Shown: piece by piece, positions 11,590 through 33,502 of the stretch
Position numbering within the stretch: the first letter of the stretch is position 1
Layout of the letters: each line of letters starts with the position of its first letter
Virus record (IMG/VR): IMGVR_UViG_3300027861_000090
Coordinates: 1 to 36,246 of that record
Direction: 5' to 3' (one strand)
DNA from: a virus
DNA: 36,246 nt
The notes under the pieces: model-generated
Seen by the model: only the letters and a program-made list of their open reading frames with translations
What the model was told of the DNA's origin: nothing
Database searches by the model: none
Position numbers and translations under genes: made by a program

Positions 11590-12456
11590 TTAAGAGGATG
11601 CGCCTCTAAGGACAACAAAATTGATAACCATGGCCCCTGTGTCTGCAGTTGATGCATGAAGATTTGTCAGAGTAATATCAAATGAGCCAGATCCTACCGC
11701 TGAAACTATAGGCACAGACGTTCCTGCTGTCTGCCCTGAAGCGGCATTGACTATAATGGTATCAAGAGCTGTCACTATCGTATTCGTCACCGTAAACGTA
11801 GCCTCTGCTCCTGCAGCCAAGGAAGTCGTGTCAGTCGTAATCTGACCGGAGTGAGTACTGAGCGTGACTCCAGTTGCCCTGGACGTTATCTGCGTCACAG
11901 TTCCTCCGTCTGCCAATATTATTGTTCCTGTGGTCAACGTGGTATCGTCAGCAATAGTCGGAGTAGTCGTGCCAGTTGGAATCACAATAACGTCAGCATC
12001 GGCATCATTTTTAATAGTGACATCATTTGTGGATCCCTGACCGGTAAGAACCAATCCCTCTGTTGCAGTATATCCATGAGCAGAATTGTCTCCTGCCGCC
12101 GTATCACCTGTCGCCTCTATTGCACCACCAGTTATATCTCCAGTGGTATCAATATTAGATGCGCCATTATTAATCGTTCCAAAATTTGAAGTTATAGATC
12201 CAGAATCCAATGCTCCAACAGTTACAATAGTTGCTGCACCTATATTTGCAGCAGAGGCCACAACATCAGAAAGAGCCACCTTGACAGTACTCGATCCCAC
12301 ATCCATATGAACAGTGCTTCCGGCAACCGGCGCGGTACTTGCCGGTAAATCAGTAGTCTTTTGATAACCTGCCTTGAATACAGCAAAGGCAGAAGACATC
12401 GGCATTATCAGCAAAAGACAGATTATTAAAAGTAAAGAATTAAGTTTTCTCATCAT
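11590..12456 (-). CDS. Secreted-type structural protein with beta-repeat body
   Basis: 288 residues starting at ATG 12456 (AAGGAG 4 bases upstream; ATG 12453 is also possible). The N-terminus is a textbook Sec signal: RKLN, a long Leu/Ile core, then SSAFA as the likely cleavage site before VFK. The body is rich in Thr, Gly, Ala and Asp, with repeated short beta elements (GTINNGASNIDTTGDITGG, then a NDVTIKNDADADVIVIPTGT stretch). A compact C-terminal domain ends in NFVVLRGASS. Such bodies occur in phage fibre or decoration proteins; a cleavable signal on one is unexpected. Location between capsid genes and the lysis group supports a virion or cell-surface role. Confidence 0.7.
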   Translation of the reverse strand: MMRKLNSLLLIICLLLIMPMSSAFAVFKAGYQKTTDLPASTAPVAGSTVHMDVGSSTVKVALSDVVASAANIGAATIVTVGALDSGSITSNFGTINNGASNIDTTGDITGGAIEATGDTAAGDNSAHGYTATEGLVLTGQGSTNDVTIKNDADADVIVIPTGTTTPTIADDTTLTTGTIILADGGTVTQITSRATGVTLSTHSGQITTDTTSLAAGAEATFTVTNTIVTALDTIIVNAASGQTAGTSVPIVSAVGSGSFDITLTNLHASTADTGAMVINFVVLRGASS

Positions 12457-12502
12457 TTTTCTCCTTGAGATAAATAGTTTAGAGCTTTTTTAATTTACAA
12501 CT

Positions 12503-13495
12503 TTATTGAGTTATCAACGCATAGCTATTTTGCGTAGTAAGCATTTTGCCGCCTTGAGTCATTAAAACAGTAAAACCAGAAATATCTGTTTTAATGACAC
12601 CGCTCCATCCCGCAGATACATCCATGTCATTTGTTCCGCTAGAAGACTGTAGCTTTGCTATTCCTGGTCCAATAAGCAATCCGTTAAATCCGAAAGAATG
12701 CGATGCTTCTGAACTGCCTACGGTCTGAAGTCCATATGTTTTCTTAGTAAGAAAATTTGTTAATTGCGCATCAGGTTCCGGGTTATACAATAAGGCGAGA
12801 TCCAATAGCCCTGCAGCTCCCCCTGCCTTATTTATGGAAGTGTCCATGCCATCCATCACAAGAGCATCCAAAGACGATATTCCCTTAATACACTGTTGTG
12901 TTTGTCCAAGTCCTGCCCTTATCTGGCTAGTTATTGTTGAGTCTGTATCAGCTGTTGCTTTTATAATACCAACATTTACATTTGTAGCACCTTTTGTCAA
13001 AACCTTCATACGATTAATAATAACACATGAAGGAAGGGCAACATTTGTAGTACCATCCATCACAACGTCTATTGCCATCTCAGGAGTATCCCAATCTTTT
13101 AAATAATACACCCTGACTGTTCTCGCACCAACACCAGCAGGATCACCGTCATCGCTTGTGCTTGACGAAACCAATTGATGCACCCTTGCCTGAGTGGGAG
13201 CAACCCATATAAGAGACACGCCTCCACTGGCAACTGTATGACCACCATCCCACACATCTGCAACCACTCCAGAATCAACCTCAATATTCTCGCCGAACTT
13301 TCCCCCATCTGACTCATCGGCAATCAAACCTAAAGCCACATCGGTTTTGTAATCCCTGACAGTAACAGTAACCAACCCATCACTTCTTCTTATGTTATCA
13401 GTAAATGCCTTGTCAGTAGAGCTACCAGAAAAACAAGATGGTGCAATAAACACCAATGCCAGAAATGACAATAAGGCTACTTTAAATTTCATCAT
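12503..13495 (-). CDS. Structural-type beta protein with N-terminal signal peptide
   Basis: About 330 residues from ATG 13495, seven bases after GGGAG; ATG 13516 lies upstream of that site and would bury the signal sequence. The N-terminus (MMKFK, hydrophobic core, then APSCFS) looks like a Sec signal, possibly with a weak lipobox. The mature part has GKFGENIEVDSGVVADVWDG and GARTVRVYYL segments, like beta-sandwich proteins that are common beside capsid genes in marine podoviruses and are thought to decorate heads or form fibres. It lies directly after the capsid terminator and before another signal-bearing protein of similar style. Confidence 0.7.
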   Translation of the reverse strand: MMKFKVALLSFLALVFIAPSCFSGSSTDKAFTDNIRRSDGLVTVTVRDYKTDVALGLIADESDGGKFGENIEVDSGVVADVWDGGHTVASGGVSLIWVAPTQARVHQLVSSSTSDDGDPAGVGARTVRVYYLKDWDTPEMAIDVVMDGTTNVALPSCVIINRMKVLTKGATNVNVGIIKATADTDSTITSQIRAGLGQTQQCIKGISSLDALVMDGMDTSINKAGGAAGLLDLALLYNPEPDAQLTNFLTKKTYGLQTVGSSEASHSFGFNGLLIGPGIAKLQSSSGTNDMDVSAGWSGVIKTDISGFTVLMTQGGKMLTTQNSYALITQ

Positions 13496-27684: not shown

Positions 27685-28410
27685 TTATGCGGGCACGTAT
27701 GCCGCAATTAATGCGTCATAAATTGAATCGCTTGATTTACATAATACGTGTTCTTCTTGGTTTTCATAACTCCAATCACAACCCAGGATTATTTGATTGT
27801 CGCAGTTAAGATATAAAGTGATTTCTGAGAAATAACCGCTCTCTTTGAATTCCTCAAAATCCAGATTATCCAAGCTTTCCGGCGTGTTTTCTCTCCCTTC
27901 ATTATAATTATCAAACTGAAACCCCTCATTGATTAGATATGAGCTATCGTAAAAATCTTGCCTGTCTTTGGTGTATCTCATTTCAGTGAACCGGAACGCC
28001 ATCAACCGCTTGATTGTATCTTGATCCGTTTCGTGAAAATAATCATTTGAGATCGCAACGCCTCCCATGCTATTGTCCAGGTCTTCCATGTCGTCACAGT
28101 ACAGCCACAGATCAAGCAGAGCCTCAAGAAACTCGCCTGATGCTGTCACGGCATTGGTAGCGATATAAAACGAGCCTACGCCTATGCTACGACTCCGGCA
28201 GAGCGTAAGAAAATGTTGTATTGCGCTAGGATTTAAAGAAGGCTCTCCACCTGTAAAAGTTACATTGTTTATATACTCGAACTGGTCTACAACTTCACAC
28301 ATGGCAATAAAAGAGATCTCTTTATTTTGAGCCGCGCCCCTGAGACAATGATCGCATACTAAATTGCATTTTCGCGTGACTTCAATTATTAAATCACCTG
28401 TTAATTTCAT
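27685..28410 (-). CDS. Radical SAM enzyme encoded by the phage
   Basis: 241 residues. The canonical cluster C15-x3-C19-x2-C22 (CNLVCDHC) binds a 4Fe-4S cluster, and FTGGEPSLNP (52-61) is the SAM-contact GGE motif. Three more cysteines near the end (203, 211, 224, in LNCDNQIILGCDW and HVLC) could hold an auxiliary cluster as in Twitch/SPASM enzymes. Length suits a compact member. The substrate is unknown. ATGA overlaps tie it to two small upstream genes, suggesting they are partners or substrates. Not an obvious QueE or anaerobic ribonucleotide reductase activase. Confidence 0.85.
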   Translation of the reverse strand: MKLTGDLIIEVTRKCNLVCDHCLRGAAQNKEISFIAMCEVVDQFEYINNVTFTGGEPSLNPSAIQHFLTLCRSRSIGVGSFYIATNAVTASGEFLEALLDLWLYCDDMEDLDNSMGGVAISNDYFHETDQDTIKRLMAFRFTEMRYTKDRQDFYDSSYLINEGFQFDNYNEGRENTPESLDNLDFEEFKESGYFSEITLYLNCDNQIILGCDWSYENQEEHVLCKSSDSIYDALIAAYVPA

Positions 28411-30358: not shown

Positions 30359-30446
30359 TTTGTTCCACCTCTCCACGCAGTCTAATTCTGTAATCTACTT
30401 AATAAATCAGGATAAATACGGACATCGGTATATCCCGTTGTTGTGC

Positions 30447-30857
30447 CTACTTTGGGAAGGATGGTCTATCTGCCCAATATACAACTGCATCCATTTTTAA
30501 AGAGTCTGACCGCTTCCATGTTTTTTCTTTTATGTCATACCATCCCATTGCTGTGTCTTTTCCATCATCATTCTTATCTGCACAAAGATACTTGTATGCA
30601 ATTAAAACTGTTTCGCAAAATCCAGGCAGTTTATCCTTTACATTAATCCATTTTATACTGTCAGCACCAGTAGGCTCAACCAACGCATCGTGCGGCTTCT
30701 GGGGTTGGTACTTTTTTAGTTCAAGCAATGGTGCATCATGTATAAAGTTTAAAGTAAAATTAGAGTTGCCAATATCTCTTGCACACCTATCAACATATTT
30801 ATGAATATTATCTTTTTGAATCTGTAATAACTTTAATACTTCTTCTTCAGTGTACAA
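30447..30857 (-). CDS. DUF551-containing protein
   Basis: About 136 residues. The best start is TTG 30857, seven bases after AAGGAG; a GTG at 30887 would lie inside the half attC site. The N-terminus is helical (EEEVLKLLQIQKDNIHKYV). The C-terminal 70 residues follow the DUF551 pattern: IKWINVKDKLPGFCETVLIA, then AMGWYDIKEKTW and VVYWADRPSFP. DUF551 is widespread in phages, with no known function. It is joined directly to a truncated attC-like element, as if a deletion fused it to the array. Confidence 0.75.
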   Translation of the reverse strand: MYTEEEVLKLLQIQKDNIHKYVDRCARDIGNSNFTLNFIHDAPLLELKKYQPQKPHDALVEPTGADSIKWINVKDKLPGFCETVLIAYKYLCADKNDDGKDTAMGWYDIKEKTWKRSDSLKMDAVVYWADRPSFPK

Positions 30858-30871
30858 TATTTCACTCCTTT

Positions 30872-30905
30872 CTGTACAAAGCCGCACATGCAGTGCATGT
30901 TAAAC
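30872..30905 (-). other. Half attC-like site (R'' side only)
   Basis: Minus strand starts GTTTAAC (an RYYYAAC box containing the TAA of the preceding gene), then ATGCACTGCATG. The first 15 bases after the box's TT match the attC at 32262-32380. No GTTRRRY box or pairing arm follows before the DUF551 ribosome site, so it looks truncated. Confidence 0.5.
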
Positions 30906-31151
30906 CGCTTTCTTTTTTATGGTAAACTTCATGGTTGTAATATCATAACCACGATGTTCAAGTTCTTGTCTAAGATTACGGCCTTCAAAATATTCCACAC
31001 CCTCTACAAAGTGTCTCAATAAGCTAGCATCACATTTATAGGCTTCTTTACCACCATGGCAATAAAACAAATCAAGATCGCCTTCATATTTACCGTAGGC
31101 GATCTTTAATTCATTCGGTTTTGCTCTTGGCACTCCCCAACGTTTCTTCAT
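30900..31151 (-). CDS. Cassette gene: unknown 83-residue protein
   Basis: ATG 31151 is seven bases after GGG and 15 bases past the R' box of the preceding attC; a longer frame runs back into that attC. The product has MKKRWGVPRAKPNELKIAYG, then GDLDLFYCHGGKEAYKCD, and a basic end (TMKFTIKKKAV). Its TAA lies in the R'' box of the half attC. No family recognised, though the style is that of phage accessory proteins. Confidence 0.65.
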   Translation of the reverse strand: MKKRWGVPRAKPNELKIAYGKYEGDLDLFYCHGGKEAYKCDASLLRHFVEGVEYFEGRNLRQELEHRGYDITTMKFTIKKKAV

Positions 31152-31165
31152 ATTGTATCCCTGCG

Positions 31166-31253
31166 GTTTAACCAACAAATCCAACGACTGTAACTAATAC
31201 CTATACCACAATCATAACCTCACATCCAGATCGTTGATCCTGAACTGTTAAAT
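31166..31253 (-). other. attC-like site, 88 bases
   Basis: Minus strand R'' ATTTAAC and R' GTTAAAC match RYYYAAC and GTTRRRY. The inner arms pair imperfectly (GGATCAACGATC against the segment GTCGTTGGATTTG). It is clearly related to the next site up (31467-31554): same length, about 70 percent identity by eye. Confidence 0.8.
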
Positions 31254-31262
31254 TTGCTTAGA

Positions 31263-31442
31263 TCATTTAAAAATAATATCACAAGCATTCATAGCAGTTT
31301 TTTCTACTTCAATATTATTAGCATTGATATGTATTCCTTCATCGTTCACTGTTATCCGCACTGTCTTATTTATTGATATTATCTCAAAATATAATTGACC
31401 GTCTTTGCCCCATTTTTCAGATTGTGCTATTAGCCTTGCCAT
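31263..31442 (-). CDS. Cassette gene: unknown 59-residue protein
   Basis: ATG 31442 lies 25 bases past the R' box; GGAG is 12-16 bases upstream, rather far. The product MARLIAQSEKWGKDGQLYFE has a beta-rich continuation (VRITVNDEGIHINANNI). Its TGA is 9 bases before the R'' box. No motif recognised. Confidence 0.6.
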   Translation of the reverse strand: MARLIAQSEKWGKDGQLYFEIISINKTVRITVNDEGIHINANNIEVEKTAMNACDIIFK

Positions 31443-31466
31443 ATTTCTTATATTTCTCCAAGCAAA

Positions 31467-31554
31467 ATTTAACCACAAATTCACCAACTGTAGTTAATAC
31501 TTTACGCCAAAATCTAATCCTCCTATCCAGCTTGGTGATTCTGAACTGTTAGAT
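31467..31554 (-). other. attC-like site, 88 bases
   Basis: R'' ATCTAAC (contains the TAA of the upstream gene) and R' GTTAAAT on the minus strand. The L arms pair: AATCACCAA against TTGGTGAAT, with unpaired bases as in extrahelical attC bases. Confidence 0.85.
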
Positions 31555-31875
31555 TTTTGCGCCTAATTTCAATACAAAATATCTACGTGCCTGTATTGCA
31601 CCCCATTTTGCTTGCCCAGTTCCAATGGATATATCTTTAAGTTCTCTTTCTGTTTGGTCTCTATCTTTAGCATATCCATTTGAAAAGATCACTTTCCATT
31701 TTTCACCTTTTGGTATTCCAAAATGAGAATGAAAGGTATTGTCTCCCTTAATAGAAAAATACTTGAAAAACCGAGAATACCAATAGTCACTAAGCCTGCG
31801 ATATTCTTCGGGCTTTTGCATGTAATGAATCATATCAAACCATTGTTTTTTAACATTTAAATGTAATATTTTCAT
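31549..31875 (-). CDS. Cassette gene: ASCH-like domain protein
   Basis: 108 residues from ATG 31875, 20 bases past the R' box of the preceding attC. The sequence MKILHLNVKKQWFDMIHYMQ, then PEEYRRLSDYWYSRF, a VIFSNGYAKDR strand and turn, and KWGAIQARRYFVLKLG follow the ASCH fold (PUA-like barrel that binds RNA or modified nucleobases). Such proteins are common phage and cassette cargo. The stop TAA is inside the R'' box of the following attC. Confidence 0.7.
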   Translation of the reverse strand: MKILHLNVKKQWFDMIHYMQKPEEYRRLSDYWYSRFFKYFSIKGDNTFHSHFGIPKGEKWKVIFSNGYAKDRDQTERELKDISIGTGQAKWGAIQARRYFVLKLGAKI

Positions 31876-31894
31876 AATTTGTCCGGAGCAAAAC

Positions 31895-32031
31895 ACCTAA
31901 CCAAGTAATCCAGTTGAGCAGAAATACACAGGTGAACTCAGTACCCCCCTTGGCGCCTCTTATGGTTTCGTACTTCGGCCAATGCTTTTTTATCCTGTCT
32001 GATTTCTGCCCACTGATCCTCGCTGTTAGAT
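31895..32031 (-). other. attC-like site, 137 bases
   Basis: R'' ATCTAAC and R' GTTAGGT on the minus strand. Arms are strongly symmetric: ATC-AGTGGGCAGAAAT pairs with the complement of ATCCAGTTGAGCAGAAAT, with one extra base on one side, the extrahelical base that directs strand choice in true attC sites. The central loop is long and variable. Confidence 0.87.
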
Positions 32032-32238
32032 TTTCAGCTTTTCTTCAAGTTCACATATCCGCCTTGCGGAAGCACTCAGCACTAAATCAGCATCCCGATC
32101 TAATTCAGCAGGTATACGCATATCAAATTCTTTGTTTATCGAATCACGCCCTTTAGTAACGGCTTGTGATAATTCTAACAATCTCTTACAGAGGACATCG
32201 CTCGGAACCTTATCTCCGTGTTTATATTTATGACTCAT
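32026..32238 (-). CDS. Cassette gene: unknown 70-residue phage-type protein
   Basis: ATG 32238 follows AAGGA; upstream ATG-like frames fall inside the attC. The product (HGDKVPSDVLCKRLLELSQ, then VTKGRDSINKEFDMRIPAE and LVLSASARRICELEEKL) is a helical protein with conserved-looking DRDAD. It resembles small proteins seen in phage genomes. The stop TAA is within the R'' box. Confidence 0.68.
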   Translation of the reverse strand: MSHKYKHGDKVPSDVLCKRLLELSQAVTKGRDSINKEFDMRIPAELDRDADLVLSASARRICELEEKLKI

Positions 32239-32261
32239 AATATTCCTTAAAAAGCTAAAAT

Positions 32262-32380
32262 ATCTAACCAACGCATCGAACGTCCTCACAAAGAAGGGGG
32301 ATTCCTGATCGTAACTCCATCGCTCTCACCCCCGACATCTAGGGCACTCTGTAAGGACGCTCATGCAGTGCATGTTATAA
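32262..32380 (-). other. attC-like site, 119 bases
   Basis: R'' TTATAAC (contains the TAA of the methyltransferase gene) and R' GTTAGAT. Arms: GCATGAGCGTCCTTACA pairs with the complement of GCATCGAACGTCCTCACA, with small offsets. Confidence 0.85.
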
Positions 32381-32935
32381 TTTATTTAACATAATTTCTA
32401 TGTCGCTGTCTATTTCATTTCCCCACGAATCCCAATCTTTGCGCTTGCGTCTCGCAAACATCTCAAGCCTAGGCTCATTGCTAACAGCCTCAATCATCTC
32501 TTGAAAGTACTCAGGTTTCCTGCTATGAACATTAGTTCGCTTTATATGCCACCAAGTAGAGTCAAGTCTTTTAGTTTTAACCATTTTGCCGTATCTACCA
32601 TGAAGTATAAACTCAGTAGTAGGGCAATAAACCCCGCCTTGTCCCGTTCCCATCGGAGACTTACACCATGTTAATGTTGTTGAGTATTTGACACCCCATT
32701 CTTTAAAGCATTCAAATGCTATAGGTAGATATCTTTGAGTAGTCCACAAATATACTTCACAATTAGTTTCAGCCAAATCTCTAACAGGCAAGGATTTTAT
32801 TTCGTCATTGCTCATTGTTGAATAAGGTATATCGCTATCTGCAGGAATATGATTCTTACTTCTCGGTATAGATGCCTTTCCCCATTTTCCATACTTCCAA
32901 GGTGGGTCAATCAAAAGAGTTCTGTATTTTTTCAT
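32375..32935 (-). CDS. Cassette gene: MT-A70 family N6-adenine methyltransferase
   Basis: 186 residues from ATG 32935 (AGGAA seven bases upstream). The catalytic DPPW lies at residues 10-13 in LLIDPPWKYGKWGKAS. Further family features: CEVYLWTTQRYLPIAFECF, then TTLTWCKSPMGTG, PTTEFILHGRYG, HSRKPEYFQEMIEA and RLEMFARRKRKDWDSWGNE. It should transfer a methyl group from SAM to adenine N6 in DNA (possibly RNA), protecting phage DNA from restriction or altering regulation. Its stop is inside an attC R'' box, marking it as a cassette gene. Confidence 0.9.
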   Translation of the reverse strand: MKKYRTLLIDPPWKYGKWGKASIPRSKNHIPADSDIPYSTMSNDEIKSLPVRDLAETNCEVYLWTTQRYLPIAFECFKEWGVKYSTTLTWCKSPMGTGQGGVYCPTTEFILHGRYGKMVKTKRLDSTWWHIKRTNVHSRKPEYFQEMIEAVSNEPRLEMFARRKRKDWDSWGNEIDSDIEIMLNKL

Positions 32936-32955
32936 AATTCCTCATGTTAAATAAA

Positions 32956-33037
32956 TTATAACCCACGCTTAGTGCGCCGGTTCAGCTCTCACTGTTTGCT
33001 TCTTCCGTGACCGGCGTACAAGCAGTGACTGTTATAA
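32956..33037 (-). other. attC-like site, 82 bases
   Basis: R'' TTATAAC and R' GTTATAA, mirror images. Arms: CACTGCTTGTACGCCGGT pairs with the complement of CACGCTTAGTGCGCCGGT, with one or two unpaired bases. It looks like the VCR type of Vibrio integrons in its TATAAC ends. It lies 10 bases past the stop of the 33048 gene. Confidence 0.87.
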
Positions 33038-33047
33038 ATCTTAGCTA

Positions 33048-33224
33048 TTAAAAAGTGTCTCTAGTTTCTTGTATGGTTATCACTTCAGCATTATCATATT
33101 CGATTTCATCCAATACATCTTCAATCTCATATAAGTCTCCATTCCTATCCAGCGTAGCAATAACTACTTCCGTTACAGTTCTTGTTATTTTAGCTTTAAC
33201 TCTAAACGGTTTTCTATCAGACAT
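33048..33224 (-). CDS. Cassette gene: unknown 58-residue protein
   Basis: ATG 33224 is six bases after GGAG and 20 bases past an R' box. The product MSDRKPFRVKAKITRTVTEV, then LDRNGDLYEIEDVLDEIEYD has an acidic middle and ends in VITIQETRDTF. No family recognised. Confidence 0.65.
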   Translation of the reverse strand: MSDRKPFRVKAKITRTVTEVVIATLDRNGDLYEIEDVLDEIEYDNAEVITIQETRDTF

Positions 33225-33244
33225 AATGGTCTCCAAACAAAGAT

Positions 33245-33367
33245 TTATAACCAACTAATGATACGCCCTCACAAAACACACACCAATTCACAGGAGTAGA
33301 TAATTTACAACTGGAACTACCCGGCCATGCTTTGCAATAAGGGCGCATATCCTGAACTGCTGTAACG
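33245..33367 (-). other. attC-like site with degenerate R'' box, about 123 bases
   Basis: The R' box GTTATAA (33251-33245 on the minus strand) is clear. The outer R'' side reads CGTTACAG, with TAC in place of the invariant AAC. The arms still pair (GATATGCGCCCT with the complement of GATACGCCCT). The cleavage happens at R', so it may still be active. It marks the array's leading edge. Confidence 0.6.
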
Positions 33368-33502
33368 TATCTTAATTCTAAGGCATTGCCTCTCTATATG
33401 CGTGTGGTCATGCCATACTGCCTTTTTGCGCGTGACAAGCCTCACAGGAGCCGCATTCCTAGCTGAATCTACTATAGGGTTAAATATCAGGAGAGGCATC
33501 AT
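33317..33502 (-). CDS. Possible 61-residue protein ending in an attC-like stem
   Basis: The start overlaps the upstream stop (ATGA). The product ARNAAPVRLVTRKKAVWHDH, then THIERQCLRIKIRY looks coded, but the last 15 residues (SSSGYAPLLQSMAG) are encoded by one arm of the attC-like palindrome. That suggests the original C-terminus was replaced when the array was joined. No family recognised. Confidence 0.5.
   Translation of the reverse strand: MMPLLIFNPIVDSARNAAPVRLVTRKKAVWHDHTHIERQCLRIKIRYSSSGYAPLLQSMAG

Follow-up and report, generated by a model that had tools for sequence, protein, structure and literature searches.

The DNA analysed here (the window, 36,246 bases) is one complete IMG/VR record, IMGVR_UViG_3300027861_000090, from a podovirus resembling epsilon15 and P22. 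Between positions 30440 and 33368 it carries seven short open reading frame (ORF) units, with the ORFs on the minus strand, and seven palindromes resembling the attC recombination sites of integrons. This raises the question of whether a phage can carry an integron cassette array, and which way the sites of such an array face relative to its genes. We consider it likely that the podovirus carries an integron cassette array of seven cassettes, in which the attC polarity is most probably plus and therefore opposite to the ORFs, and for which recombination is predicted. A preliminary description of this DNA had proposed a cassette array inside the phage gene order; this was borne out, the array being slightly larger than claimed (seven units and seven sites, named S0 to S6 below). 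The features are as follows, with lengths in nucleotides (nt) or amino acids (aa) and with polarity readings based on extra-helical bases (EHB), which are explained further on.

30440-33368, attC polarity probably plus, ORFs minus: whole cassette array, seven units and seven attC-like sites
30440-30446, plus: proximal junction box G/TTGTGC, attI-like or target side; no palindrome after the box; its flank and the beginning of the next unit pair at 11/12
30674-30905, probably plus: S6, attC-like, 232 nt, long loop; reading of AAC, 8 nt, C and stem 10.0 antisense versus 4.5 sense
31166-31253, probably plus: S5, attC-like, 88 nt; R boxes 8/8; best covariance match of the array region (9.4 bits, plus strand, non-significant); EHB metric slightly sense
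31467-31554, probably plus: S4, attC-like, 88 nt; R boxes 8/8; EHB metric a polarity tie
31895-32031, probably plus: S3, attC-like, 137 nt; R boxes 8/8; covariance 8.9 bits, plus strand, non-significant; EHB metric slightly sense
32262-32380, probably plus: S2, attC-like, 119 nt; stem score 42; EHB reading 8.0 antisense versus 4.0
32956-33037, probably plus: S1, attC-like, 82 nt; folding z -3.3; EHB reading 9.5 antisense versus 1.5
33245-33368, probably plus: S0, attC-like, 124 nt; degenerate box 33362-33368 as distal junction with the phage backbone; box without complementary partner upstream
30447-30857, minus: first-unit ORF, 136 aa; weak PHROG 15198 match
30900-31151, minus: ORF c6, 83 aa; no family
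31263-31448, minus: ORF c5, 61 aa; no family
31549-31872, minus: ASCH-like ORF, PHROG 625; also cassette-borne in contigs G030 and G031, a plain gene in contig G001
32026-32238, minus: ORF c3, 70 aa; no family
32375-32935, minus: MT-A70 family DNA methyltransferase (PF05063, 6e-24; PHROG 359, 2.4e-42)
33048-33224, minus: ORF c1, 58 aa; PHROG 25313
32374-32392 and 32944-32962, no strand: the two halves of a perfect terminal inverted repeat (19 nt) in the MT-A70 unit
33317-33502, minus: backbone ORF beside the distal junction; core conserved in G001, where it immediately precedes the plain ASCH gene

Six of the sites, S0 to S5, lie between consecutive minus-strand genes (124, 82, 119, 137, 88 and 88 nt, respectively) and match the range of 82 to 137 bases given in the preliminary description, from which the seventh and longest, S6, was absent. 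The constant RYYYAAC and GTTRRRY boxes described there are complete at S3 to S6 (8/8 positions) and only partial at S2 (6/8) and S1 (4/8), while the gene-stop-side box of S0, ACGTTAC, is the sole degenerate outer box. Four ORF stops do fall within a box (at S2, S3, S4 and S6), and the inner sequences differ as claimed, save for S4 and S5, which agree at 78% of positions over 50 nt, and S2 and S6, which have arm sequence in common. In a two-strand scan of the full 36 kb, perfect R boxes with a stem were found only inside the array. The first-unit ORF starts within the S6 loop (30674-30857) and runs through the right arm, making the attC arm coding sequence; a similar overlap of an attC arm with the start of an MT-A70 gene was seen in locus L009, near 1952-1992.

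The two ends of a single cassette are complementary, since they make up the paired R boxes of one attC when the cassette is a free circle, and in an array the R boxes of one site derive from two different cassettes. The ends of the six inter-site units gave anchored match scores of 12, 19, 12, 7, 10 and 10 with the other end of the same unit, and ten canonical cassettes, taken as controls from class 1 plasmids, a Vibrio prophage, phage TJE1 and contig G002, scored 8-13. In a permutation test, matched ends scored 9, 16, 4, 2, 6 and 7, mismatched pairs averaged 1.8, and the observed total was reached by 2 of 720 permutations of the unit ends. Among random GTT/AAC boxes of the window, a score of at least 7 occurred in 1.4% and of at least 10 in 0.1%. 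It is mainly on this complementarity of unit ends that we identify the units as cassettes. The terminal inverted repeats extend into coding sequence, by 19 nt at the MT-A70 gene and by 17 nt in contig G003. Extended repeats as a trait of phage cassettes only were considered and rejected, as canonical cassettes also reach 13 nt.

The recombining strand of an attC site is decided by the first of its extra-helical bases, which lie on the R''-L'' arm (PMC2727003). In the canonical sites, the first extra base was found 8 nt after AAC, on the arm beside the ORF stop. At S0, S1, S2 and S6 the succession of AAC, 8 nt and an extra base reads better on the plus strand, and because of this we take these four sites to run against their ORFs. 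The extra unpaired base of the preliminary description is thus present, but the one nearest the R box lies mostly on the arm opposite to that expected for gene-oriented sites.

The closure of the array provides an argument on polarity that is independent of the extra-helical bases. Complementary ends are also seen in the unit past S6, 30680-30440 (GTTGAGCCTACT versus GTTGTGCCTACT), whose far end has no palindrome; the partner box there scores 9, the next best among 35 boxes tested being 5. A complementary partner for the outer box of S0 was sought before S0 and none was found (best score 4). With plus polarity, seven units correspond to seven sites, the proximal junction has no palindrome and the distal one joins the backbone, whereas minus polarity leaves one unit without a site and one site without a unit. 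The earlier statement that all sites share the gene orientation is therefore not supported: extra-helical bases, the weak covariance matches and array closure all favour the opposite polarity, and we hold with good confidence that the attC sites of the window are reversed relative to the genes.

The same arrangement was found in other phages. In PH101, MW202573 and four contigs, G003 (L008/L076), G004 (L009/L074), G030 (L058/L182) and G031 (L057/L184), the matches to a canonical attC model and the genes lie on opposite strands, with L004 and L011 as single weak cases. Pseudoalteromonas phage PH101 has four covariance matches, and every one of its genes lies on the opposite strand; this phage is important for the polarity reading because its sites recombine with IntI1 (PMC9892861). 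No remark on antisense polarity was found in the text of that paper. The EHB scoring of the other phage sites gave 15 antisense, 1 sense and 1 tie. Normal polarity was found in phages TJE1 and Rctr41k and in contig G002, and prophage arrays of Vibrio and Shewanella from host integrons also have normal polarity save for single antisense ORFs. All of this comes from a small sample selected by bait searches and is a comparison, not a survey. Rctr41k (KX853513; L186 4680-9435) carries an intI-like gene annotated as xerD, co-oriented with the array, with at least three normal-polarity attC sites downstream and methyltransferase genes adjoining.

G030 (IMGVR_UViG_3300031697_000459, 40,370 bp), found in a search for ASCH cassette relatives, is a contig with genes for a repressor, primases, small and large terminase (TerS and TerL), head protease/capsid and tail. 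Between TerS and TerL lies a complete integron (L182 10634-13416), with intI at 12448-13416, an attI-like junction near 12376 and two cassettes, one with ASCH and a small ORF and the other with a small ORF and HNH. The assignment follows from an intI above the curated cut-off (TIGR02249, 435 bits versus a cut-off of 265), from the attC sites and from the complementary cassette ends, with 8 nt common to both ends in each of the two cassettes. The integrase also aligns end to end with VchIntIA (2a3v, E 8e-87). As in an ordinary integron, the attC sites are oriented away from intI, and the cassette ORFs head towards intI, co-directional with TerL. From its repressor/antirepressor, G030 is probably temperate.

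Several observations weigh against a reversed cassette array in the window. Simple EHB scoring of the sense and antisense readings of every site gives on its own 4 antisense, 2 sense and 1 tie, and this metric was correct for just 13 of 17 canonical sites (13 sense, 3 antisense, 1 tie); it also contradicts L011 as a reversed case. Single antisense ORFs in Vibrio arrays (L020) show that antisense cassettes as such exist in bacteria. The covariance model R2, built from 13 canonical attC sites, gave matches to S5 and S3 (9.4 and 8.9 bits) with E values of about 0.6-0.7 in 8 kb, which are non-significant, although both matches cover the full model length, end exactly at the site ends and lie on the plus strand; the near-identical model R1 (one base pair apart) detects held-out class 1 sites at 28-33 bits. 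The covariance check that the preliminary description had proposed thus gave weak, non-significant matches. Compared with shuffles, the folding energy of most sites is ordinary, with S1 as the one that stands out (z -3.3), and the evidence for the sites is positional, not energetic. As the preliminary description stated for the neighbourhood of the array, no integrase was found: neither a tyrosine recombinase (PF00589) nor TIGR02249 was matched in the 36 kb record, which is possibly a fragment. As attI there is only a candidate, the non-palindromic junction box at 30440, and no cassette turnover was observed.

The cargo bears on where the cassettes came from. What can be identified in the window (the MT-A70 methyltransferase, the ASCH-like protein and the PHROG 25313 protein) resembles phage genes. 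The preliminary description had suggested capture from a host integron; no host integron was identified, and the MT-A70 and ASCH cargo has phage relatives, some of them in phage cassette arrays. The ASCH family is cassette-borne in the window, G030 and G031. In G031 (L184 14036-14095, L057 329-1024), the ASCH cassette has 10-nt complementary ends and its sites are antisense to the genes. A search for ASCH in bacterial genomes returned 11 loci with 30-44% identity, none of them an evident source, and none was found in 25 relatives recognised by their portal.

Contig G001 is a genus-level relative of the window phage (terminase 57-67%, capsid 66%, tail protein 71%), and its ASCH gene (L041 5996-6330) is 97% identical to that of the window (31549-31872) and free of attC. 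Other proteins of the two phages are mostly 40-70% identical. On either side, the high identity stops where the coding sequence does, and the differences within the gene cluster in the first 45 nt. In G001, ASCH directly follows the small ORF which in the window flanks the array, and the window copy is two codons shorter, ending at the box. These observations would suit an origin of cassettes within phage genomes, in which an attC arm is joined to the end of a gene, an inverted copy of the gene end serves as leader, and the array is partly home-made; the terminal inverted repeats that reach into the MT-A70 and G003 coding sequences point the same way. However, G001 may instead have lost its sites, the identity could be explained by a gene-conversion tract, with the differences clustered at one end, and canonical cassettes also have complementary ends of 8-13 nt. 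We consider such cassette genesis unlikely, and it is compatible with a reversed cassette array. As a separate observation on G001, its large terminase (L071 4473-7082) matches as two pieces, with about 1 kb extra inside one open frame of 893 aa, resembling an intein or inserted domain.

Somewhat more doubtful is the explanation that these are cassettes of normal polarity, with attC running with the genes, that came from a host integron. The four ORF stops within a box are as in normal cassettes, the sense reading is slightly favoured at S3 and S5, and normal polarity is known in the phage arrays of TJE1, Rctr41k and G002. On this explanation, however, no attC would belong to the first unit (30447-30857) and no gene unit to S0, the extra base of S1, S2, S6 and S0 lies on the wrong arm, and a host origin fits poorly with identifiable cargo that has phage relatives. 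That there is no integron array at all, and that the palindromes are intergenic hairpins (terminators, RNA elements or elements like miniature inverted-repeat transposable elements) resembling attC by chance, would suit the non-significant covariance scores and ordinary folding energies, but is very improbable given that perfect R boxes with stems are confined to the array in 36 kb, that matched-unit end complementarity is specific to cassette exchange and unexpected for terminators, and that the array is absent from relatives.

For the window phage, the nearest terminases were those of MW202898 (47%) and the epsilon15 group, the portal and capsid match PHROGs for head-tail adaptor and major head, and about 14 contigs are related at 57-67% in terminase or about 62% in portal. 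Phage relatives at the DNA level were not found for the window, nor did a TerL peptide scan or a search with the small array-flanking ORF as bait return any relatives. The relatives that were examined lack the array, in place of carrying the same palindromes at every site: it was absent from the early regions of six other relatives, whose records are possibly fragments. The canonical attC model found nothing in the 25 portal relatives, which is uninformative, as this model also misses the window's own sites. Exact attC-arm patterns searched in viral contigs gave 0 matches or 8 chance matches. In the window itself, an Rfam search gave no match and a tRNA search gave none. Its early region also holds a Radical SAM-like gene (27685-28410, PHROG 1802), and an ORF with a cysteine motif that is similar by eye lies at L008 1409-2257, in a contig with a cluster of attC sites lacking an integrase (CALIN).

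For the reversed array, we propose that each cassette is a short ORF unit with complementary ends and one attC site that folds from a single strand. The array would extend from the non-palindromic junction at its left (30440) to the degenerate outer box of S0 at its right (33368). The folding and recombining strand would be the coding (minus) strand of the ORFs, with crossover in the box beside each ORF stop. The units could be inserted and excised in trans by an integron integrase, supplied by a host integron or by a co-infecting phage such as G030. The minus strand of the window phage carries long genes, and the units may be transcribed with these and not from the integron promoter Pc; ORFs facing against attC would be the expressed ones because of this shared transcription. 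Protection of the phage against restriction may be the role of the methyltransferase, as Qi et al. 2023 suggested for the cassette cargo of their phages (PMC9892861).

If phage arrays systematically reverse their genes, phages would hold cassettes fitted to phage expression, with their own integrase in at least one case, which goes beyond stolen integron pieces. Lytic phages would then also have a site-specific route to swap small genes such as methyltransferases. A gene found both free and cassette-borne in related phages provides a testable handle on the origin of cassettes. More broadly, tailed phages could keep an integron system of their own, a shared pool of attC-reversed cassettes (MT-A70, ASCH, HNH) read by phage transcription, in which some phages (G030) supply the integrase and the arrays of others depend on it in trans; we give this about an even chance.

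Compared with known systems, the array of the window is of a known kind, a phage CALIN. The preliminary description held the architecture to be undescribed, which was mistaken: Qi et al. 2023 had already reported 17 CALINs in phages, virulent ones included, and IntI1 recombined five of the six sites tested (PMC9892861). What appears to be new is that reversed polarity is common to several phages and that one phage has a complete reversed integron. The phage CALINs of TJE1, P12002L, PH101 and MW202573 (PMC9892861) are, like the window, attC arrays without an integrase in a phage genome, with methyltransferase cargo; those of PH101 and TJE1 have sites active with IntI1, and PH101 and MW202573 share the attC polarity opposite to the genes, as computed here. 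The window differs from the CALINs of Qi et al. 2023 in its phage group (epsilon15/P22-like podovirus), in sites too divergent for the canonical model and in longer terminal repeats. G030 is like the window in having ASCH in a reversed-polarity cassette with the ORF along phage transcription. It departs from the window in carrying just two cassettes, a repressor/antirepressor and, between TerS and TerL, its own intI (TIGR02249) and an attI-like junction.

In the usual description, integron cassettes are genes without promoters of their own that face away from Pc. Class 1 and sedentary chromosomal integrons (Vibrio, Shewanella) share with the window the complementarity of unit ends, the R boxes, the geometry of AAC, 8 nt and extra base (in the window at four of seven sites, read with plus polarity), and units of one or two ORFs. 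Their ORFs normally run with attC polarity and are read from Pc, whereas the window has no intI and the opposite polarity. Treponema-type integrons (PMC3607928) resemble the window in the atypical relative orientation of integron parts, but there it is intI that is turned relative to the array, and the cassette ORFs keep the normal direction, unlike those of the window.

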